In this document: positions 469 through 23,580 of the stretch, piece after piece | Numbering within the stretch: position 1 is the stretch's first letter | How the letters are laid out: each line of letters starts with the position of its first letter | DNA from: Hysterangium stoloniferum | Taxonomy: Eukaryota > Basidiomycota > Agaricomycetes > Hysterangiales > Hysterangiaceae | Reading direction: 5' to 3' | Assembly (NCBI GenBank): GCA_015178975.1 | Contig: WHVD01000197.1 | Span: 62,001-126,000 of the forward strand | Length of the DNA stretch: 64,000 nt | Notes under the pieces: model-generated | Told to the model about the DNA's origin: nothing | The model's input: only the letters and a program-made list of their open reading frames with translations | The model's database searches: none | Position numbers and translations under genes: made by a program

Positions 469-716
469 TGTTAGAGTATGATATTACAGCTCTTACATAG
501 TCTATGATGTTCCCTATATTTTTCTGATATTTGTAGTATTTTTCCCAGCACTGTAGGTGCAGTATTGAGTGAGTTACCTAGTAAGGTAACTGATGTGTAG
601 GTGCTTAGGTAAGCACCCTGTAGTATACTCCGCTGTGGGTGTGGGAAAGTCTCCTTAGTGTTTACTTTCCTCACACTCACAGGGTGTTTGTCAAGAGTTA
701 TTCAACTGTTTCAACA
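469..716 (+). repeat. Copia-1 5' LTR (248 bp, short form)
   Basis: Starts TGTTAGAGTATG and ends GTTTCAACA. It holds two adjacent perfect 7-bp hairpins with 4-nt loops: GTTACCT/AGGTAAC at 573-590 and GGTGCTT/AAGCACC at 600-617. Compared with the copies at 5584-5888 and 24241-24545 it lacks a 57-bp tandemly repeated block ending TTTCCTCACACTCACAGG. Confidence 0.92.
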
Positions 717-730
717 GGTTATGGGCCCCG
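717..730 (+). other. Primer binding site, half tRNA-iMet type
   Basis: GGTTATGGGCCCCG directly follows the LTR. Its complement, CGGGGCCCATAACC, has the CAU anticodon loop of initiator tRNA-Met. Drosophila copia and yeast Ty5 are known to prime from a cleaved half of that tRNA; I infer the same here. The identical 14-mer follows two other LTR families at 13919 and 22380. Confidence 0.75.
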
Positions 731-1317
731 GCTTCTAAACCGGTACATCCAGTTGTCATCTGTGCAATCCATCACTTTGCACATCTTTTCTGACAACTTC
801 TACTTGTCCAAAACACTCTACATTGGGTTTGGATTTTATTTTGGTTATATCTCCTTGGATTTTGGCCTGATTTGGTCGCTTTTTGGACTCACATCTCACA
901 CCTGTGATTGTGCGCATTTTTCGCCCATTTAGGCGCCCGTGTCCATAAAAGGAAATATATTCCCACGCTCCAAATCGCTTGTCGTCGCTCAATTTCCCTT
1001 TTTTGGGCAACTTCATTTTTATCACCCTTGTGACTCACCCTGTCACACCCTGTCACCTCTCTCTCCAGTCACACTCTTCCCTCACACCTCAAGCACTTCA
1101 CAGTATCATCTGGGTCTGTGCCACGTCATTTTCCCTTTTTAACACGGTCTTTTAGATACATTGAACTTGAACTGTTGGCATTGTGCTCTTCAGTGGGCCT
1201 TTGTTTTTACCTTCCTTGCAATATCACGGTAACCCTGTTGAGCAAGGCGGTGTTACAACTGCGAGTCCAATTACTTAGTTCTTTTTAAGTTAAATTCTTG
1301 GTGGATATTGACGTGTC

Positions 1318-4300
1318 ATGGCATCCAGTGATACTTACAAACGTAGTGTCATATTGGGAGAGAATAATTATGAGGATTGGAGACATGACGTAATTGGTCT
1401 TTTGCGTATGGAGAACTGTCTCTCTATTGCCACTGGCAAAGAAAAACAACCTAGTGAGACTAGTTTACAGTCTGCCTGGTTGGAGCGCTCCAATAAAGCA
1501 GCTGGTATCATATGGCGCTCTCTTGGACCTACACAGCGCACCCATGTTGACATTGATGATGGTCCTGATGATATGTGGTCTAAAATTGACAAGGCACATA
1601 ATAAACAACTCCCTGCAATTCGTTTTAGTGCCTACAATGACCTCTTTAATATTCGGAAGGAACCTGATGAATCTCTAACTTCATTAATGAGTCGTGTTGA
1701 CAAGGTTTGTGCACGTGTCCAGAACTTGCGTCCAAAGGGGTACACTCTTGCCATGCTGGATGATGAGCTTGCTGCTCTCACTTTACTTCGTTCTCTGCCT
1801 GAATCTGACTCTGTGTGGACTTCATCTTTAATGATGAATACTGCTATCACATTCTCTGATGTCAAAACTCACTTTGCATCACAAGAGAGTTTGCAGTCTG
1901 CCAGAAGTTTAGAGACGGCGAACAAAATTGTGTCAAAGACTTCCAACACTTCTGGTAAAGTTCCTTGCACATTCTGCAATGGTTCCACCCACACCCAAGA
2001 CAATTGTTACGAGTATGCAAATGCACAGAAACAGGCAAAGGCCAAAGTTGAGCAGAAGAAAAAGGAGTATAAAGAAAGAAAGACTGCTAAGGCTGACAAA
2101 GCTAATGCGTCTGACAAGGTATCAGAGGAGAAGAAACCAGAGAGTGCTGGAAATGCAAGTGTTTCTATCCCTGACTCTACCGATCCATCTTGTGCTCTCC
2201 TTGTCAATGCTAGTTCTGACTGGACTGCTGACACAGGTGCTTCTTCGCACATGACTCCCCATCGTCATTGGTTTTCAAGTTATACCCCGTTTCAAACACC
2301 TATCCAAGTTGCAAATGGACAAATAGTTATGTCTGCAGGGATAGGAGCAGTGCGGTTTAAGCCTAAAGGGAATGGAAATGTAATAATAGAGTTTGAAAGG
2401 GTTCTCCATGTTCCCCATCTCACAAGTAACCTCCTCTCCGTCTTGTATTTGACAAAGAGAAAGAATTTCCGTGTCTCTATCTTTCATTCCACCATGTCTT
2501 TCTATTTGAGAAAGGTCTTGCGTTTCACTGCCACAGTCAATGAACATAACCAGGCCTATTTGGATGGAATGACGGTACCTATGACGGATTATGCAGGTCT
2601 TGTTACAACCTGTCCCTTGGACTCCACACTTTGGCATCGTCGCTTTAATCATCTCAATCATGCCGATATCCAGAAGCTCCTCAAAGGTGATTTGGTTGGT
2701 GGGATAAAGATTGACTCTCACACGTCTCCTGATCCTATTTGTGAACCTTGTTTGGCTGGAAAACAGAACAGAGTGATTAATAAAATAGCAACAACACGCT
2801 ATACTAAACCACTTGCACTCATTCACAGTGATGTTCATGGTCCCTTGCCTACACAAACTGTGGAAGGGTTTCGCTACTGGATCACTTTCATTGATGATGC
2901 CTCACGCTATGCTTCGATTGCATTACTCAAAAATAAGAGTGATGCCTTTCAGGCATTTAAGCAATATAAGGCTAAAGTGGAGAACTTGCTTGGTCAGAAG
3001 ATCAAGATATTCAGAGATGACAAGGGTGGAGAATATATGTCTAAGGAGTTTGATACCTTCCTTTCCACTGCTGGCATCAGCCGGCAGCATACTGTGCGGA
3101 ATGAACCACATCAGAATGGGGTTGCTGAACGCTTCAACAGAACATTGGAAGAAGGGGCTACTTCAATTATGGCTGAATCCCACCTCCCTCCCTCATTCTG
3201 GGGACATGCTGTCATTGCCATTACTCATGTGCGCAACTGCTCACCTACCACTGCTCTTAAGCATTCTGTGCCTTATACTGTTTGGCATAGTAGGAAACCA
3301 GAAGTATCACATCTTAGGGTATTTGGCTGTACTGCTTATGTGCATGTACAGAAGGACCAACGTATTGGACTTGGCTCTCATACACAGAAATGTGTCTTTA
3401 TTGGATATCCTCCAGATTATAAGGGTTGGATGTTTTACAATCCCTTGACTAAGAAGACTATTATCAGTAATAATGCTGTCTTTGATGAGAGAGTCTTACC
3501 AGGCTTGTCTAAACCTGCCATACCTTCTACTCCTACTGCTCCTGATGTTCTTCCTGATACTCCACAATTTATTGATTTGTTTATTCCTGGACCCTCTAGG
3601 TCTATTCAGGTGGGAGCCCAGCCTAATCAGATGGGAGCTCCACAGGAACCAAATCCAGTGGGAGATGGTCAGAATAATGCTTTGCCTCCTGGTCCTAGTT
3701 CCAACTCTGATTCTAATTCTGAACATTCTGAACGTTCACCGAGTCCTCCTCCTCAACCACGTCGCAATCCACCCAGAAACAGAGTTCCTCCTAAGCGTTT
3801 CTGGCAAGTTGACCCTGCTCACATCCACAACTATAGAGAATCTACTCCTGTAGTTGAGTCCAGTGATGAGGCAGAGGATTCTCCACTACATTCTCCTCCT
3901 CCAGTTGAGTCTGAGGAAGAAGCCCTAGCTGCCAGTGAGGGAGATCTTTACATTGGTGTGGATGAAGCCTTTGAGTTTGCCTACAAGGCCAGTGCTCGTG
4001 ATGATGCACCGAGAACTCTCAAAGAGGCCTTACAAAGTCCTGATGCTGACAAGTGGTATGACGCTGCATATGCAGAAATGCAATCCCTGCTTGAAAATGG
4101 CACTTTTCGCCTTGCTAAACTACCTGAGGGTCGTAAAGCTATTGGCTCTCGTTGGGTGTTTGTGATCAAGCGTAAGAAGGATGGGTCAATTGACAAGTTC
4201 AAAGCTCGTCTTGTTGCAAAAGGCTATGCACAACGACCAGGGTTTGACTTCACTGATACCTTTGCTCCTACTGCCAAATGGGCCACTTTGCGTGCTGTCC

Positions 4301-5562
4301 TAGCATTGGCTGCACTGGAGGACATGGAACTTGAGAGTGTAGATATCTCCTCTGCATTCTTGAATGGTGAACTTGAAGAGGAAGTATACTTGCAGCAGCC
4401 TGAAGGTTTTCACCAAGGTGCTCGTGATGAGTTCTTACTTCTTCTGAAAGGACTATATGGTTTACGCCAGTCACCTCGTATCTGGCACAAGAAGTTGAAT
4501 GCTGTCCTGCTCAGTTTGGGTTTCAAACAAGTGCTATGCGATCATAGCATTTGGGTCTTCCAAAAGGGTGATGTCAAAGTCATTATACCAGTATTTGTAG
4601 ATGACATGACTATTGCATCTAAATCCAAGGAGGCTATCAAAAAGCTCAAAGATGATCTAAAGAGCCACTTCAAATTGCATGATCTTGGTCCTACTTCTTA
4701 CTTGTTAGGTGTTGGCATTGAAAGAGACAGGACAAAGCGTACTATTACTCTATCACAGCGTCAATACATCTTGGACATGTTACAGCGTTATGGTCTTGCT
4801 GACTGCAATCCCATTGGTACACCTATGATACCTAACTCAAAATTGAGTAAAGACCAGGCTCCAGTGTCTCCTGAAGAGATTGCATACATGAAGGACATTC
4901 CATACATCCATGCTGTTGGTTCTCTTATGTATTTGGCTGTTGCCACTCGTCCAGACATTGCCTATACTGTTGGAGTATTAGCCAGATTTAATCACAATCC
5001 AGGAAAGGCTCATTGGCTAGCAGTACAACATCTCTTTCGATATCTCAAAGGCACCCTTGACTTGGGCTTGACTTTTGGCCCTAGTAATGACAGGGAATTG
5101 TTTGTGTCTTATTCAGATGCTGACCATGGAGGTGATAAGTCAACTGGAAAATCTACTGGTGCATATGTGGTTAAGATGGGTACTGGAGCCATTAGCTGGC
5201 AGAGCAAACTCCAGACTATTGTAACTCTCTCTACTACTGAAGCAGAGTATATTGCAGCAGTGTCAGCTGGTCAGGAAGTGCTATGGTTGCGAAACTTATT
5301 TGAGGAATTGGGATATCCTCAAAAGACTGCATCCACTTTGTATCTTGACAACCAATCTTCTATTGCAGTTGCCAGAGATCCTGAACATCATGGCCGTATG
5401 AAGCATCTGGATTTGAGAACATATTGGTTAAGGCAGGAAGTTGATAGTGGGAAGATCAAAGTTGTTCATCTCCCTACTTCAGAGATGCCTGCTGATTTAT
5501 TGACAAAACCATTGGCTAAGCCAAAGGTAGAATACTTACGAAAACTACTGGGACTAGCATAG
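1318..5562 (+). CDS. Copia-1 gag-pol polyprotein, intact (1,414 aa)
   Basis: Domains in order: gag of the UBN2 type (about residues 10-200); zinc knuckle CTFCNGSTHTQDNC (CX2CX4HX4C, about 218); aspartic protease WTADTGASSHMT (about 303); GAG-pre-integrase LWHRRFNHL with CEPCLAG (about 440-485); DDE integrase with HSDVHGPL, FIDDASRY and NGVAERFNRTL (about 500-610); reverse transcriptase from RWVFVIKRKKDG with FVDDMTIA as the catalytic site (about 945-1190); RNase H with SYSDADHGG and STTEAEYIAA (about 1265-1395). No stop or frameshift is visible. One frame encodes gag and pol together, as usual for copia. The ATG at 1318 is the first one in frame ahead of the gag domain. Expected to make virus-like particles and copy its own RNA. 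Confidence 0.95.
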   Translation: MASSDTYKRSVILGENNYEDWRHDVIGLLRMENCLSIATGKEKQPSETSLQSAWLERSNKAAGIIWRSLGPTQRTHVDIDDGPDDMWSKIDKAHNKQLPAIRFSAYNDLFNIRKEPDESLTSLMSRVDKVCARVQNLRPKGYTLAMLDDELAALTLLRSLPESDSVWTSSLMMNTAITFSDVKTHFASQESLQSARSLETANKIVSKTSNTSGKVPCTFCNGSTHTQDNCYEYANAQKQAKAKVEQKKKEYKERKTAKADKANASDKVSEEKKPESAGNASVSIPDSTDPSCALLVNASSDWTADTGASSHMTPHRHWFSSYTPFQTPIQVANGQIVMSAGIGAVRFKPKGNGNVIIEFERVLHVPHLTSNLLSVLYLTKRKNFRVSIFHSTMSFYLRKVLRFTATVNEHNQAYLDGMTVPMTDYAGLVTTCPLDSTLWHRRFNHLNHADIQKLLKGDLVGGIKIDSHTSPDPICEPCLAGKQNRVINKIATTRYTKPLALIHSDVHGPLPTQTVEGFRYWITFIDDASRYASIALLKNKSDAFQAFKQYKAKVENLLGQKIKIFRDDKGGEYMSKEFDTFLSTAGISRQHTVRNEPHQNGVAERFNRTLEEGATSIMAESHLPPSFWGHAVIAITHVRNCSPTTALKHSVPYTVWHSRKPEVSHLRVFGCTAYVHVQKDQRIGLGSHTQKCVFIGYPPDYKGWMFYNPLTKKTIISNNAVFDERVLPGLSKPAIPSTPTAPDVLPDTPQFIDLFIPGPSRSIQVGAQPNQMGAPQEPNPVGDGQNNALPPGPSSNSDSNSEHSERSPSPPPQPRRNPPRNRVPPKRFWQVDPAHIHNYRESTPVVESSDEAEDSPLHSPPPVESEEEALAASEGDLYIGVDEAFEFAYKASARDDAPRTLKEALQSPDADKWYDAAYAEMQSLLENGTFRLAKLPEGRKAIGSRWVFVIKRKKDGSIDKFKARLVAKGYAQRPGFDFTDTFAPTAKWATLRAVLALAALEDMELESVDISSAFLNGELEEEVYLQQPEGFHQGARDEFLLLLKGLYGLRQSPRIWHKKLNAVLLSLGFKQVLCDHSIWVFQKGDVKVIIPVFVDDMTIASKSKEAIKKLKDDLKSHFKLHDLGPTSYLLGVGIERDRTKRTITLSQRQYILDMLQRYGLADCNPIGTPMIPNSKLSKDQAPVSPEEIAYMKDIPYIHAVGSLMYLAVATRPDIAYTVGVLARFNHNPGKAHWLAVQHLFRYLKGTLDLGLTFGPSNDRELFVSYSDADHGGDKSTGKSTGAYVVKMGTGAISWQSKLQTIVTLSTTEAEYIAAVSAGQEVLWLRNLFEELGYPQKTASTLYLDNQSSIAVARDPEHHGRMKHLDLRTYWLRQEVDSGKIKVVHLPTSEMPADLLTKPLAKPKVEYLRKLLGLA

Positions 5563-5583
5563 AGCTGTCTCATCAGGTGGGAG

Positions 5584-5888
5584 TGTTAGAGTATGATATT
5601 ACAGCTCTTACATAGTCTATGATGTTCCCTATATTTTTCTGATATTTGTAGTATTTTTCCCAGCACTGTAGGTGCAGTATTGAGTGAGTTACCTAGTAAG
5701 GTAACTGATGTGTAGGTGCTTAGGTAAGCACCCTGTAGTATACTCCGCTGTGGGTGTGGGAAAGTCTCCTTAGTGTTTACTTTCCTCACACTCACAGGTA
5801 TGTAGTTATTTCACAGTTGAATACACTTAGTGTTTACTTTCCTCACACTCACAGGGTGTTTGTCAAGAGTTATTCAACTGTTTCAACA
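5584..5888 (+). repeat. Copia-1 3' LTR (305 bp, long form)
   Basis: Matches the 5' LTR except for an additional 57-bp block that repeats the stretch TTTACTTTCCTCACACTCAC, so that stretch occurs twice. The solo LTR at 24241-24545 has the same long form. Followed directly by Copia-2 pol sequence. Confidence 0.92.
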
Positions 5889-6502
5889 GGATACTCACAA
5901 CGTCCTGGCATTGACTACAATGAAGTGTTTGCACCTACTTTTAGACCTGCCACTCTGCGTTTGATTCTGGCCCTAGCTGCCATTGAAGACATGGACTTGC
6001 GCTCTGTTGACATTTCTGCTGCTTTCACCCATGGTGACCTTGATGAGACAATCTATATGAGACAACCTGAAGGCTTCCATCAAGGAGGTCCTAATAAGGT
6101 TCTCAGACTCTTGAAATCACTTTATGGTCTCAAGCAGGGATCTCGTCAATGGAACATCAAATTACATAGTGCACTTACTGAAATGGAGTTCAAACGAATT
6201 GAATCTGATACCTCTGTTTACATTTATTCAAATGGAGAGGTGAAGATCTTTGTACCCATTTACATTGATGATATTACATTTGCATCCAAGTCCACTCTTG
6301 CCATTGACAAAGCTGTCAAGCAATTGTCCCTGCATTTCAAATGCCGTGATCTTGGATCCACTGTTTATTTACTTGGTGTGGGAGTTAGCAGAGATCGCTC
6401 TAAGCGACTCCTTACTCTTGATCAGCGACAGTTTATTCTCAACATGCTTGAGCGTTATAAAATGTCTGATTGTCATCCAGTTCTCACACCTATGACACCT
6501 GG
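5889..6502 (+). pseudogene. Copia-2a reverse transcriptase fragment
   Basis: The frame opens GYSQRPGIDYNEVFAPT and continues with VDISAAFTHGDLDETIYM, PIYIDDITFA (the YIDD catalytic site) and DLGSTVYLLGVGV, to MLERYKMSDCHPVLTPMTPG, where the inverted LTR begins. It is well conserved against Copia-1 (GYAQRPGFDFTDTFAPT) but clearly another family. It has no start codon and no upstream domains. Confidence 0.9.
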
Positions 6503-12366: not shown

Positions 12367-12432
12367 CACATCCCTTCGAACTGGGGGGCACTGTGAAGGG
12401 TATGTATATATGTTAAAGGCATAGAAAAGAAT

Positions 12433-12507
12433 TGACCCAGCCTGGGATTGAACCAAGGACCTCCTGGCTTTATATGCAGGTGCTCTTAACCACTGAGCTA
12501 CTGGACC
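12433..12507 (-). tRNA. tRNA-like unit in TRIM LTR
   Basis: 75 nt: 7-bp acceptor (GGTCCAG/CTGGGTC with two G-U pairs), D arm GCTC/GAGC, T arm CTTGG-TTCAATC-CCAGG. A box TAGCTCAGTGG and B box GGTTCAATCC fit Pol III consensus. The anticodon arm CCTGC-ATATAAA-GCCAGG has an extra C and no standard anticodon, so decoding by a mature tRNA is doubtful. Confidence 0.5.
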
Positions 12508-12749
12508 TATAGTCTAGTATTATATGATGGATTATATATACATATATATCAGGACTTATGTTGCCAACTTGTGCTCTTATAACAGTTTATATAACTGATG
12601 GCAAACCTGGGTCTTGTAACAGTCTGTCACATATAGATATTGTATTTTCCCATTTCTAACACTTCCCCTGAAATCAATATCTAGTCTATACCCTATGCAG
12701 CGCACCAAGCTCACGGGGCCCATAACCTGTTAAAGGCATAGAAAAGAAT

Positions 12750-12824
12750 TGACCCAGCCTGGGATTGAACCAAGGACCTCCTGGCTTTATATGCAGGTGC
12801 TCTTAACCACTGAGCTACTGGACC
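12750..12824 (-). tRNA. tRNA-like unit in TRIM LTR
   Basis: Identical 75-nt unit in the second LTR of the same TRIM; followed on the minus strand by the T-run TTCTTTTC, suitable as a Pol III terminator. Confidence 0.5.
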
Positions 12825-13580
12825 TATAGTCTAGTATTATATGATGGATTATATATACATATATATCAGGACTTATGTTGCCAACTTGTGCTCTTATAAC
12901 AGTTTATATAACTGATGGCAAACCTGGGTCTTGTAACAGTCTGTCATATATAGATATTGTATTTTCCCATTTCTAACAATATATGCATAATTGGACAGTG
13001 GATTAATATGCACATTATAGTACTTTATTATCTAGTTTCTATTTCTTTTCTTTAATTCTCTATATCCTTCGAGCATACCCGTATTTCTTAGTTCGAAGTC
13101 TTGTGTATACCTATGGGCGCTCTCGGCGCCAAACAACAGACATCTTTTTACCCAGCAGACACCACCTCGTAAACGACCCAGACGTCGAATAGCGAGAGGT
13201 GTCAAGGGTAACGTCTCAGTTACCTATAAAGGTAGCGTTTTCTCGCATACTAACAGACTTTGAACTCGAACCGCGAAGGTCGAGTTTCACTCTAAGGTCT
13301 TTGCGCTCCTCGACACTATAGTCGACTTGCGCTACTATCTCTTTACTTTAGATATCCAGCCTCTCGTTGATTATCTATTTTACATCTAGCTGCGAGTGGT
13401 ACCGTAAAGGTCAACTCTTTCATTCTCTCATTCTAGCTGTCAAGAGCAACTGTATAGTTGCTCTTGTGACGTGTAGCGTGTCTCCTTCCTAGTACTGTCA
13501 GTCTAGCAATCTACAGTATTGTACTGAACGGTCAATACCTGCTAATAGTAGTTGAATAAACACTATACTTCATATATTGA

Positions 13581-13918
13581 TGTTAAAACTGCCTCCACTG
13601 TCTCCAAGACCTTCTGGAACCTTCTAGAACCTTCTAGAACCTTCCAGCATGTTCCAGAGTATTTCTAGTTCATTTCCCATGACAGCTGTCAATCAGCTGT
13701 CAGTTTGTATTCCAGCTGTCAATCAGCTGTCAGTTTCCATTCAAGCTGTCAATCAGCTGTCACTTCTGACAGCTGTCAACCAGCTGTCACTTTTGACAGC
13801 TGACAAGCCTACTGATGTATAACATATATAAGCTTGTAGTTAGTGACCTGAATAGTAACAACTTTCCTCAGACTTGTGTGTGTCACGTGTCACAGTAAGT
13901 CACAGGTCACATTTAACA
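13581..13918 (+). repeat. Copia-2b 5' LTR (338 bp)
   Basis: Followed directly by the primer site, which fixes orientation. Heat-shock array 13612-13644 is perfect in all seven units although neighbouring bases differ from other copies; the AGCTGTCA array is one unit shorter than in 7421-7769. Confidence 0.9.
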
Positions 13919-13932
13919 GGTTATGGGCCCCG
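13919..13932 (+). other. Primer binding site, half tRNA-iMet type
   Basis: GGTTATGGGCCCCG, the same 14-mer as at 717, here behind a Copia-2 LTR. The following GCGCTCTAAGCGC can fold into a small hairpin. Confidence 0.75.
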
Positions 13933-14248
13933 CGCTCTAAGCGCTCTAGTACAGTATAACGTTTTGCAAACTCGCTTCTTTTGAGTAAGTTTCAACCTAT
14001 ACTTTATATTCCCCTGCCAGGCCCAGCCTTATTGCTGTTGCTAGTAGGGAGGAACTTGTAAGCCACTAAGGCTGAGTTTCCCTCGAGACTACCGTCTGGA
14101 CCTCGAGTTAAATACCTTTTTTCCCAACTTCTTTGCGAGTTTGCTCTCTCTATACTTGTATACAATGTCATCTTCCATCCCCCAATTCCCTAAACTCAAC
14201 TCTCATAACTACAATACCTGGTCTGGTGAGATGCAGGCTTGGCTTCGT

Positions 14249-14499
14249 TGTTAGAAATGGGAAAATACAATATCTATATGTGACAGACTGTTATAAGACC
14301 CAGGTTTGTCATCAGTTATATAAGCTGTTATAAGAGCACAAGTTGGCATCATAAGTCCTTATATATATGTATATATAATCCATCATATAATACTAGACTA
14401 TAGGTCCAGTAGCTCAGTGGTTAAGAGCACCTGCATATAAAGCCAGGAGGTCCTTGGTTCAATCCCAGGCTGGGTCAATTCTTTTCTATGCCTTTAACA
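14249..14499 (+). repeat. Solo TRIM LTR (251 bp) in Copia-2b gag
   Basis: TGTTAGAAATGGG..CCTTTAACA, flanked by TTCGT and TTCAT (one mismatch, consistent with a 5-bp duplication that has since mutated). Removing it restores the gag reading AWLR-AQGVW. Confidence 0.9.
14403..14477 (+). tRNA. tRNA-like unit in solo TRIM LTR
   Basis: Same 75-nt unit as in the other TRIM LTRs, no substitution seen; T-run TTTT at 14482-14485. Confidence 0.5.
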
Positions 14500-14923
14500 T
14501 TCATGCCCAGGGTGTATGGTGCATTGTTGAGGCTTCCTCCATTGCCCCTGCACTATCCTCATCTCCTACAGAGGCCCAGCAAACTGCATTTGATGCTTGG
14601 GCTCTCAAATCAGACAAAGCAGCAGGTTGGATGTACTTGAGTGTTGAGGATGATCAAAAGATTCATCTTAAAGGGATTGAGGGTGATCCGGTCAAGATGT
14701 GGACCAGTCTGTGTGATGTACACTTGCAGAAGCGCCCTGGCATGCATTTCAATGCATATGATGATCTCTTCTCCATCAGAAAGGAAGAGAATGAGAATTT
14801 GCAAACTCTGATGAATCGGGTGGATATAGCCATCTGTGCCATCCAGGATCTGCACCCATTGAATTTTGATCTTGCCAAACTTGATGAGGAGCTTGCATCA
14901 ATGGCAATGATCAGGGCACTTCC

Positions 14924-15160
14924 TGTTAAAACTGCCTCCACTGTCTCCAAAACCTTCTGGAACCTTCTAGAACCTTCTAGAAGCTTCCAGCATGTTCCAG
15001 GGTATTCCCAGTTCATTTCCCATGACAGCTGTCAATCAGCTGTCAGTTTCCATTCAAGCTGTCAACCAGCTGTCACATATGACAGCTGACAAGCTTACTG
15101 ATGTATAACATATATAAGCTTGTAGTTAGTGACCTGAATAGCAACAACTTTCATCAGACT
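14924..15160 (+). repeat. Truncated Copia-2 LTR
   Basis: Starts TGTTAAAACTGCC and stops at CATCAGACT where an inverted TRIM LTR begins. Heat-shock array 14955-14987 perfect in seven units. The AGCTGTCA array is reduced to about five units. Confidence 0.88.
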
Positions 15161-15411
15161 TGTTAAAGGCATAGAAAAGAATTGACCCAGCCTGGGATTG
15201 AACCAAGGACCTCCTGGCTTTATATGCAGGTGCTCTTAACCACTGAGCTACTGGACCTATAGTCTAGTATTATATGATGGATTATATATACATATATATA
15301 AGGACTTATGTTGCCAACTTGTGCTCTTATAACAGTTTATATAACTGATGGCAAACCTGGGTCTTATAACAGTCTGTCACATATAGATATTGTATTTTCC
15401 CATTTCTAACA
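15161..15411 (-). repeat. TRIM LTR, inverted, at a deletion junction
   Basis: 251 bp; + strand TGTTAAAGGC..TTTCTAACA. Left flank is the truncated Copia-2 LTR, right flank is Copia-2 RNase H; no target duplication (AGACT versus ATTGG). All of Copia-2b between gag and RNase H is missing at this point. Confidence 0.87.
15183..15257 (-). tRNA. tRNA-like unit in inverted TRIM LTR
   Basis: Same 75-nt unit, apparently unchanged. Confidence 0.5.
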
Positions 15412-21118: not shown

Positions 21119-21820
21119 AGAACCAAATACTGAGATTTTCAACAACCCTAAGTAGTTCAAAACCTCATCAAAGACCTGCTAGTCTGGAACCACCCCGTAA
21201 TGTCACCATGAGAAAGTCTTTGTTGACTTTTCAAAGACCAGTTCCTCCTGGGAATTCCCCCAGAGCAGCAGCTGGACCATCAATGGATACTCCCCCTGAT
21301 CCACATGAAGAACATCCATCAACCAGGCAGTTGAGCACCCCTGGAGCTAATGTCAAGCCTACCTGTGCACCTGAGCCCATTCTCTTGTTTCCCCCAAGGC
21401 AGGTCATCCTCAAGCAGTTCTTTGGGGGTCCTATGGTTTATGCTGAGCCTATCGATGTGAAGTGGGTCATGTACTACACTGATTGAATCTCCGCTGATCA
21501 GATTACTCTTTCATGGAGGAGTACAATACAGATTACCCTTCTTTACTGGTAACTGTAGCAGTCTGGTTAGGTCGTTATCAGGCCATCTTATTGGCGAAGG
21601 ACTTATTCACATGACCAGGAACCCTTGAGGATCTGACCCGCTCGATTCCTGAATGGTTGAGTGAGGTTATATCTGTTATGGAAGGGGGAAGGACGATTTT
21701 CAAGCAGGAAGTGTTCTCTTTATTCCTCAAAGCACTCCGTGCACATGATGATGTGTTGCAAATCCTTCACATCCTACTTGGTGGGGATCACATCGTGCCC
21801 AAGGTTGACTACCAGTATAT

Positions 21821-21881
21821 TGTTAAAGGCATAGAAAAGAATTGACCCAGGCTGGGTCAATTCTTTTCTATACCTTTAATA
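21821..21881. repeat. Near-perfect inverted repeat of the TRIM LTR end
   Basis: The last 30 bp of the TRIM LTR are present twice head to head: TGTTAAAGGCATAGAAAAGA.. followed by ..TCTTTTCTATACCTTTAATA, no spacer, about three mismatches. It can form a 30-bp hairpin. It stands where the 5' LTR of the outer TRIM should be. Confidence 0.9.
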
Positions 21882-22282
21882 GGTTATGGGCCCCAATCAG
21901 CTTTATCTGCTGCATAGGGTATAGACTAGATATTGATTTCAGGGGAAGTGTTAGAAATGGGAAAATACAATATCTATATGTGACAGACTGTTATAAGACC
22001 CAGGCTTGCCATCAGTTATATAAACTGTTATAAGAGCACAAGTTGGCAACATAAGTCCTTATATATATGTATATATAATCCATCATATAATACTAGACCA
22101 TATGTCCAGTAGCTCAGTGGTTAAGAGCTGTTAGAAATGGGAAAATACAATATCTATATGTGACAGACTGTTATAAGACCCAGGTTTGCCATCAGTTATA
22201 TAAACTGTTATAAGAGCACAAGTTGGCAACATAAGTCCTTATATATATGTATATATAATCCATCATATAATACTAGACTATA

Positions 22283-22357
22283 GGTCCAGTAGCTCAGTGG
22301 TTAAGAGCACCTGCATATAAAGCCAGGAGGTCCTTGGTTCAATCCCAGGCTGGGTCA
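22283..22357 (+). tRNA. tRNA-like unit in inner TRIM 5' LTR
   Basis: Cloverleaf as at 12433-12507. A box TAGCTCAGTGG, B box GGTTCAATCC, T-run about 5 nt after the 3' end. Loop ATATAAA would place ATA (or TAT/AAA with another stem register) as anticodon, none of them a usual eukaryotic choice for this arm. Confidence 0.5.
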
Positions 22358-22600
22358 ATTCTTTTCTATGCCTTTAACAGGTTATGGGCCCCGTTCAGCT
22401 TCATCTGCTGCGTAGGGTATAGACTAGATATTGATTTCAGGGGAAGTGTTAGAAATGGGAAAATACAATATCTATATGTGACAGACTGTTATAAGACCCA
22501 GGTTTGCCATCAGTTATATAAACTGTTATAAGAGCACAAGTTGGCAACATAAGTCCTTATATATATGTATATATAATCCATCATATAATACTAGACTATA

Positions 22601-22675
22601 GGTCCAGTAGCTCAGTGGTTAAGAGCACCTGCATATAAAGCCAGGAGGTCCTTGGTTCAATCCCAGGCTGGGTCA
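22601..22675 (+). tRNA. tRNA-like unit in inner TRIM 3' LTR
   Basis: Identical to 22283-22357. A further copy is split by the inner TRIM (5' part ends 22128, 3' part resumes 22703). Confidence 0.5.
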
Positions 22676-23580
22676 ATTCTTTTCTATGCCTTTAACAAGA
22701 GCACCTGCATATAAAGCCAGGAGGTCCTTGGTTCAATCCCAGGCTGGGTCAATTCTTTTCTATGCCTTTAACAGACAACCCATTGACGATATCATGAGCT
22801 TGCAGACTTATGCTAACAATCTACAAGAGGCTTTGATTAATGCTTGGGTCCAAACACATCGAGAGCATTATCAGTTTCAGAAGCCCAGAGTCATGATCGC
22901 CAAACAGGAAGAATCAGATCCCTGGCAGGAGGAGGAGCACTCCAGAGGAATTGACCCCACTAATCGAGGCCATGTCTTTCTCAGCAAAGCCGAGGATAAA
23001 ACCGTCCTAGGAGATCCAACATGAAACAGGGTAAGAAACACAGCAAGTTCTTTTTTGAACGAAGTGACAAGAAAAGCATCGCTAAACCCCCAAAGGAGTG
23101 CTGGATTTGCGGGAGCTTAGAGCATTTTAAGATTGACTGCCCTCATGCTGGTAGGATGTTGCACTATGTCTCTATTAACAAATGCTCCACACAGAACCCG
23201 ACTGAGGAGGTGGAGGATCAGAGGGTTTACGAAACGGTTTATGGATTAAGCATACAGGGACAAGTACATAACGTTGATGAGGAATCAATTTTCATTTCTG
23301 TCTACCTTCCTCAATCAGAGGATGACATTGTTTTAGTTCATCCCCAAATGAGAACAAAGCATCGCAAGTCTATGTTTCTATATCAGACTGTGATTTCCTT
23401 GAGAAAGGAGACTGGCTGGATGCTCATTGTCAGAACTGGAAAGGTCTGACTGAGACAGGAGCCTTATTGCGATCTAAACCTCCTACCATTATGGAAATCG
23501 TCGACGAGGAAGTATTTGCAAACTGATCTAAAGAAATAAGTCAGACCTACATTATAGAAGACCCCTCTTAGTTAGAGGGA

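Follow-up and report, generated by a model that had tools for sequence, protein, structure and literature searches.

Helenus-type TRIMs of Hysterangium stoloniferum and their chimeras with a Copia family as genomic evidence for a likely helper element

Known tRNA-bearing TRIMs and the element at 22129..22697

TRIMs with tRNA-derived sequence in their LTRs were named Helenus by Kojima (2024, PMC10886601), who counts 113 families in Pucciniales and also records them from Agaricus, Coprinopsis, and Amylostereum. According to the passages of that paper on fungal families, these elements are 311-1263 bp long, have a 5-bp target site duplication (TSD), and carry a primer site and a purine tract between the LTRs (PMC10886601). 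Their tRNA-like unit contains a box A with TRGCY and YGG and a box B with GGTTC, and shows no complementarity to the primer site, which pairs with a tRNA's anticodon half, in most cases that of initiator Met (PMC10886601). The same passages leave a functional RNA polymerase III (Pol III) promoter unproven, rely on primer sites, and once on internal similarity, to infer helpers, and mention tandem arrays for the zebrafish family LTR-11_DR alone (PMC10886601).

For the plant element Cassandra, Kojima's discussion describes an RNA that starts in 5S and ends in 5S, and finds no indication of a helper (PMC10886601). Template switching is one proposed origin in the account of Cassandra tandem arrays (PMC7215508). 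In Triticeae, the portion of Sabot and Schulman (2007, PMC1950507) on complex insertions describes cases with three LTRs, the outer two being alike, and a single 5-bp TSD, and explains them by switching between two RNAs packaged in one particle. Part of a further plant study also describes LTR elements in tandem, some of them flanked by perfect TSDs (PMC11899658).

The window, i.e. the whole analysed stretch of 64,000 nucleotides, contains a complete element of this kind, inserted into an older copy of the same family. A BRR2 gene piece in the window matches Coprinopsis, Amylostereum, and Ceratobasidium at 68-71% among its named hits, and unnamed sequences at up to 82%.

22129..22697, forward strand: complete Helenus-type TRIM (LTR-internal-LTR) without coding capacity, 569 bp
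22124..22128, unstranded: left copy of the TSD AGAGC, 5 bp
22129..22379, forward strand: 5' LTR, 251 bp, TGTTA...TAACA
22380..22446, forward strand: internal segment, 67 bp
22380..22393, forward strand: primer-binding site, 14 nt, exact complement of the anticodon half of initiator-Met tRNA genes
22437..22446, forward strand: polypurine tract TCAGGGGAAG, adjoining the 3' LTR
22447..22697, forward strand: 3' LTR, same sequence as the 5' LTR
22698..22702, unstranded: right copy of the TSD AGAGC, 5 bp
21846..22128, forward strand: remnant of the older Helenus copy (LTR end 21846-21879, internal 21882-21948, LTR 21949-22128)
22698..22773, forward strand: remainder of the LTR of the older copy (LTR 176-251)

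The initial annotation had described a 251-67-251 bp element that lacks coding capacity and has the duplication AGAGC as well as a primer site and a purine tract, and this description is confirmed throughout. It had also held that a tRNA equivalent in a fungus was not a named family, which is incorrect, as the relevant passages of Kojima already name tRNA-bearing TRIMs Helenus (PMC10886601). The element combines a length of 569 bp and no coding capacity with tRNA units in the LTRs, TAGCTCAGTGG/GGTTCAATCC boxes, a primer site, a purine tract, and a 5-bp TSD, and is a Helenus, the assignment being made against Kojima's description. Its insertion point lies in the D arm of the older copy's tRNA unit, a nesting that the initial annotation had missed. 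The 5' edge of this older copy is a foldback in the region 21805-21882, where its own LTR end forms an inverted repeat (21821-21856 on the reverse strand, 21846-21879 on the forward strand).

The genome contains many further copies. The LTR search lists 62 matches, obtained from the best 40 of 318 first-look candidates, and 19 of the 62 matches listed, including the copy at 22129, are full-length identical LTRs. The search with the internal segment yields at least 40 matches, the best 40 of 84 candidates having been scored. The copy sample, composed of the window and 52 loci fetched around LTR and internal matches, holds 104 complete LTRs, which represent 57 distinct sequences, together with 55 complete internal segments (main subtypes of 67 and 66 bp). 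Copy diversity is understated in this sample because the searches favour the best-matching copies. The sample comprises 69 units, namely 41 single LTRs, 24 two-LTR elements, and four arrays of 3, 3, 4, and 5 LTRs, with an exact TSD around 16, 12, and three of them, respectively. Thus, 15 of the 28 units with at least two LTRs have an exact 5-bp TSD, and the failures are partly chimeras, parts of rearranged arrays, and truncated copies. Arrays with outer TSDs are found at L050, L060, and L079. The outer LTRs are alike in L050 (two columns differ) and L060 (five), whereas those of L079 and of L042 differ from each other at diagnostic sites. L045 (G000:C534:47000-50600) contains a more extended series of Helenus LTRs and internal segments, in which some LTRs are internally rearranged. 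Three more Helenus copies lie in the window itself:

12411..12978, reverse strand: second complete Helenus copy, 66-bp internal subtype, TSD intact
14249..14499, forward strand: Helenus solo LTR within a Copia fragment, without exact TSD
15161..15411, reverse strand: Helenus solo LTR adjoining the Copia LTR 14924-15163, without exact TSD

Chimeras with a Copia family and unlike LTRs

The Helenus primer site is complementary, without mismatch over 14 nt, to the anticodon half of the initiator tRNA genes L095, L096, and L105 of this genome, which are three among 19 places matching the search pattern. The same initiator tRNA matches the primer site of a Copia family with a 338-bp LTR (LTR_C), which is present in the window as follows:

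13581..13918, forward strand: LTR of the putative helper Copia family (LTR_C, 338 bp, TGTTA...TAACA)
13919..13935, forward strand: primer-binding site of the LTR_C Copia, 17-nt exact complement of the same initiator tRNA as for Helenus
14502..14921, forward strand: Copia-type gag remnant between two LTR_C copies (Retrotran_gag_2, E 1.4e-10)

Copia LTR_C and Helenus have a stretch of 21 bp in common, consisting of TTTAACA and the first 14 nt of the primer site. The LTR_C Copia, i.e. the family of 13581-13918, is the likely helper of Helenus. Another Copia of the window, with an LTR at 469, carries at position 717 a 14-nt primer site for initiator tRNA identical to that of Helenus, and LTR_C is therefore a likely, not necessarily the sole, helper. 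This second Copia family is nearly complete in the region 469-5890, with LTRs from 469 and 5584 and an open frame of 1414 aa at 1318-5562 (gag, integrase, and RVT_2). A search for further Copia relatives by purine tract was uninformative, matching 15 places compared with 12 for the reversed control pattern.

Helenus and the LTR_C Copia are physically joined at several loci. At 11 fetched loci, the Helenus internal segment is preceded by a Copia LTR of the 338-bp type in place of the Helenus LTR. Altogether, 16 junctions between LTR_C and the Helenus internal segment were recorded, 13 in 12 fetched loci and three more by pattern search. As far as read, the order throughout is Copia LTR end, Helenus internal segment, Helenus LTR, the last being known from its end only in the chimeras at C108 and C514:401500. 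L058 contains, in addition, a second chimera that is older and truncated.

An exact 5-bp TSD surrounds the whole chimera in 10 of the 12 with both outer flanks read, two of these TSDs being weak; this tally leaves out L051, L077, C514:401500, and the older L058 chimera. The duplicated sequences are ATCCA, CTGTC, AAAGA, CAATC, TTTAT, GGTTG, ACGCG, CCTGG, TTTTT, and ATCAC, and a cross-pairing control of left flanks with the right flanks of other loci gave 0 matches in 132. The two weak cases are TTTTT at C2, which is of low complexity, and CTGTC at L058, where the chimera lies within a Copia LTR that itself repeats the CTGTC motif. No TSD was found at the chimeras L052 and L086. The chimera at L042:6340-6710 (G000:C543), flanked by GGTTG, has a 5' Copia LTR of only ~50 bp with an internal deletion, both LTR ends being kept.

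Two of the ten chimeras with an exact TSD are longer composites. C2 is arranged as Helenus LTR, Copia body, Copia LTR, Helenus internal segment, and Helenus LTR (TSD TTTTT), and C259 as Copia LTR, Helenus internal segment, Helenus LTR, Copia body, and Copia LTR (TSD ATCAC). The Copia body is mostly unread in both, and for C259 the reading of the last Copia LTR covers the 11 bases at its end.

Helenus copies nested ordinarily in LTR_C, with a TSD, are also present, at L042, L068, and L071. At L062, a Helenus LTR is joined to a partial LTR_C, off the primer site and without TSD, an exception that counts against the strand-transfer model described below. As a separate observation, a repeated motif of the Copia LTR, CAGCTGTC, adjoins four Helenus or chimera insertions (L042:844-1412, L071:829-1079, L058:443-1098, and L062:784-1353). 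The first three of these have an exact TSD CTGTC beside CAGCTGTC, which is possibly an insertion hot spot.

In the genome, where junction counts are exact-pattern counts or lower bounds, 48 native junctions of Copia LTR and Copia internal segment (primer site) and 10 of LTR_C with the Helenus internal segment match the exact patterns, and six junctions of the Helenus LTR with the Copia internal segment are found with at most two mismatches, three of them in L077, C2, and C259. At the other end of the internal segment, allowing at most two mismatches, the genome holds 0 junctions of the Copia purine tract with the Helenus LTR and 0 of the Helenus purine tract with the Copia LTR. Likewise, the exact pattern of a Helenus internal segment behind an LTR without the TAACA end occurs 0 times in the genome. 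The occurrence of Copia/Helenus junctions at the shared primer site, with none detected at the purine tract, points to co-packaging of the two RNAs and intermolecular plus-strand transfer. A Helenus primer site preceded by a complete Copia LTR, from its U3 start onwards, is the product expected from Copia plus-strand strong-stop DNA annealing to a Helenus minus strand.

The composites could also have a different origin. Yeast Ty5 cDNA reportedly integrates by homology, and one-LTR circles integrated in the same manner into resident copies would fit C259, C2, L050, and L060, which retain a TSD and have outer LTRs that match each other in kind but not the inner ones. Two-LTR chimeras in the order LTR_C, Helenus internal segment, Helenus LTR with a TSD are, however, hard to produce in this way, because a solo LTR_C has no primer site, and circle integration is a possible but doubtful source of the composites.

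Crossing-over or gene conversion between genomic copies after integration, acting at the shared 21 bp, is an improbable source of the chimeras and unlike LTRs. Recombination is common in this family, as indicated by the solo LTRs with exact TSD (16 of 41), and both the missing TSDs of L052 and L086 and the weak linkage described below are compatible with it. Yet crossing-over would join unlike flanks, and DNA recombination is disfavoured because the chimeras carry TSDs, exact in 10 of 12 (two weak); conversion at 21 shared bp is likewise not expected to exchange a whole 5' LTR with precise ends.

Intermolecular transfer may also explain a feature of the Helenus copies themselves. Standard reverse transcription produces identical LTRs. 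In 10 of the 12 TSD-flanked two-LTR Helenus copies, the two LTRs disagree at positions for which each of the two letters is also present at other loci. The 12 copies together show 26 differences at such shared sites and 10 private ones, four of the 36 being located in the tRNA unit. When all LTR pairs around an internal segment are taken, arrays included, 29 of 35 differ, by 3.4 columns on average compared with 4.0 for random pairs. Gene conversion could account for unlike LTRs as well as intermolecular transfer.

The strand-transfer model predicts that the internal segment is linked to the 3' LTR and not to the 5' LTR. In units composed of Helenus only, this linkage has a Mantel r of 0.078 (permutation P 0.19), versus -0.089 for the 5' LTR, and label swapping gives P 0.054; the direction is as predicted and the signal weak. 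Among six sites tested singly, site 57 alone falls below 0.05 (uncorrected P 0.034 for the 3' LTR, 0.43 for the 5' LTR).

The tRNA-like unit and its conservation

Each LTR of the element at 22129..22697 contains a tRNA-like unit together with Pol III-type motifs.

22283..22357, forward strand: tRNA-like unit of the 5' LTR (LTR 155-229; ARAGORN; Rfam RF00005, 48.6 bits)
22601..22675, forward strand: tRNA-like unit of the 3' LTR (ARAGORN; Rfam RF00005)
22290..22300, forward strand: box A-like TAGCTCAGTGG, at LTR 162, a motif match
22336..22345, forward strand: box B-like GGTTCAATCC, at LTR 208, a motif match
22362..22365, forward strand: T4 run, candidate weak Pol III terminator, sole T4 of the 5' LTR

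Six such units in both orientations had been read from the sequence, and ARAGORN and Rfam RF00005 each recover all six in the window (22283-22357, 22601-22675, and 14403-14477 on the forward strand; 12433-12507, 12750-12824, and 15183-15257 on the reverse strand), one call for each of the six complete LTRs. At the gathering threshold, Rfam matches in the whole window are to tRNA only, with no 5S rRNA in the LTRs. The claimed A and B boxes and T-run are likewise present, with the boxes at LTR 162 and 208 and one T4 per LTR, and the anticodon arm is abnormal, with an extra C, as had been read.

The claim of tRNA-like folding holds in part. The covariance model gives the unit 48.6 bits (E 2.4e-7), far above chance and above the gathering score of 29. 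The minimum-energy fold, however, is another structure, at -21.4 versus -18.3 kcal/mol for the cloverleaf (a gap of 3.1), and the stability of the unit shows no excess over shuffles (z -0.30). Support for the cloverleaf comes from the tRNA covariance model, and free energy gives none.

The T4 runs on the forward strand of the element are restricted to one per LTR (22362-22365 and 22680-22683), just past the tRNA unit, and at least one T4 run is kept in 104 of 104 LTR copies. In 14 tRNA genes of the genome, the first run of at least four T has length 4 in three and 5-8 in 11, and T4 therefore lies at the weak end in this genome. Avoidance of T-runs as a sign of Pol III gives no signal, with 1 T4 per 318-bp unit versus 0.93 expected.

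A possible parent of the unit is the tRNA-Cys gene L019 (G000:C217:40505-40577), a candidate by sequence similarity that matches the first 18 nt of the unit exactly. L019 has the best global score of ten tRNAs, narrowly (26.0 versus 25.0 and 24.5), with 53 of 75 identities.

Among the 104 complete LTRs, the tRNA unit has a per-site diversity of 0.0049 versus 0.0179 outside it, i.e. 3.7-fold lower. Letters found at two or more loci amount to 2 over the 75 unit sites versus 18 over the 176 outside sites (2 versus 22 when shared letters are counted per copy and not per locus). Letters found at one locus only number 14 in the unit versus 30 outside, with no depletion in the unit. Even new mutation together with fewer transmitted changes is suggestive of selection on the tRNA unit during replication. 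The allele test comparing the unit with the rest of the LTR gives a Fisher P of 0.071 and a binomial P of 0.053. Given these values, the case that the initial annotation had set against retention, a unit varying as fast as the rest of the LTR, is disfavoured, although weakly. Retention of the unit is suggested by the lower diversity, the allele test being suggestive only (P 0.05-0.07).

It is unlikely that the tRNA unit is a passive passenger of an LTR driven by a Pol II promoter further upstream, its low variation reflecting chance or recent origin. This explanation would suit the youth of the copies (19 of the 62 matches listed identical over 251 bp), the marginal allele test, the minimum-energy fold that does not favour the cloverleaf, and the lack of avoidance of other T4 runs, and it would dispense with the read-through that a T4 between the 5' unit and the primer site otherwise demands. 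Nevertheless, the 3.7-fold lower diversity with undepleted one-locus letters fits selection on moving copies, both boxes lie inside the unit, and T4 is retained in 104 of 104 copies. In addition, Kojima's presentation of the families indicates that the same layout recurs in Helenus of fungi, animals, and plants (PMC10886601).

Other tRNA-rich repeats of the genome were considered as further Helenus families and set aside; the high-scoring 94-95-nt units on C112, C68, C410, C526, and elsewhere resemble intron-bearing tRNA copies. Units of this length (C112, C68, C410, C526, C98, and C290; L015, L018, L022, and L025) are clustered, several pairs being ~370-430 bp apart. ARAGORN assigns the anticodon tta to most of them, and they look like lysine-type tRNA copies with an apparent intron. 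In a repeat check of six such loci, L025 is a tandem repeat, L015, L018, L022, and L033 contain repeated copies, and L014 shows no repeat.

Proposed replication and comparison with known systems

Taken together, these observations probably reflect a young Helenus family that is driven by Pol III, packaged by Copia, and subject to intermolecular strand transfer. RNA polymerase III would bind the A and B boxes and start near the tRNA unit of the 5' LTR, read through the weak T4 in this LTR, and terminate at the corresponding T4 of the 3' LTR. The tRNA unit would thereby double as the repeated R region of an RNA of ~400 nt, a layout analogous to that of Cassandra. The Helenus RNA would enter particles of the Copia with 338-bp LTRs, where the 5' half of initiator-Met tRNA would prime at the shared site, a site that is itself observed, and integration would give rise to the 5-bp TSD seen at the copies.

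The strand-transfer part of the model uses the known steps of reverse transcription. Inside the particle, plus-strand strong-stop DNA would often pair with the primer site of another molecule. The predicted products, in the order LTR_X-internal_Y-LTR_Y, would include both Helenus copies with unlike LTRs and the Copia-LTR/Helenus chimeras. Furthermore, the plus strand may recopy the attached primer and hop again, which would lead to three-LTR composites and to tandem arrays with one outer TSD. Such a relay, in which plus-strand DNA hops via the common initiator-tRNA primer site and one integration contains a chain of LTRs and internal segments from different parents, is a proposal with even chances. 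If it is true, the genome records which RNAs shared a particle, wherever Helenus and its helper share a primer site.

Helenus itself is an already named kind of element, and what is added here is genomic evidence, strong but indirect in the case of the Copia helper, for such a helper and for frequent intermolecular strand transfer. A search of the openly licensed literature, mostly at the level of titles, gave no report that we recognised of Copia/Helenus chimeras or of a Pol III-type TRIM joined to its helper, which is a weak form of absence. TSD-flanked chimeras are more direct traces of co-packaging than inference from primer sites, and here point to one helper family. A search for chimeras may thus serve as a general route to the helpers of TRIMs with unrelated LTRs. 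Dating by LTR-LTR divergence, on the other hand, can fail in this family, because paired LTRs often differ at sites that vary between loci.

The rice pair Dasheng/RIRE2 is similar in combining a non-autonomous element with a partner, and its chimeras have reportedly been taken as evidence of partnership; Dasheng is, however, a large Gypsy-type element without a tRNA unit. Cassandra resembles the present family as a TRIM with Pol III gene sequence in the LTRs and with tandem arrays, as the portion of the literature on its structure describes (PMC7215508), but carries 5S rRNA sequence in plants, whereas the sequence here is tRNA-derived and the host a fungus. For Helenus in Kojima's study, helpers were proposed from primer sites or internal similarity, whereas here the helper is indicated by chimeras, and the unlike LTRs within TSD-flanked copies are a difference from Helenus as portrayed in the relevant passages (PMC10886601). 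The closest parallel to the composites is provided by the complex insertions of Triticeae, four of which are described in the corresponding part of that report, each within one family (PMC1950507), whereas the present insertions connect a TRIM with a Copia that has an unrelated LTR, joined at the primer site.
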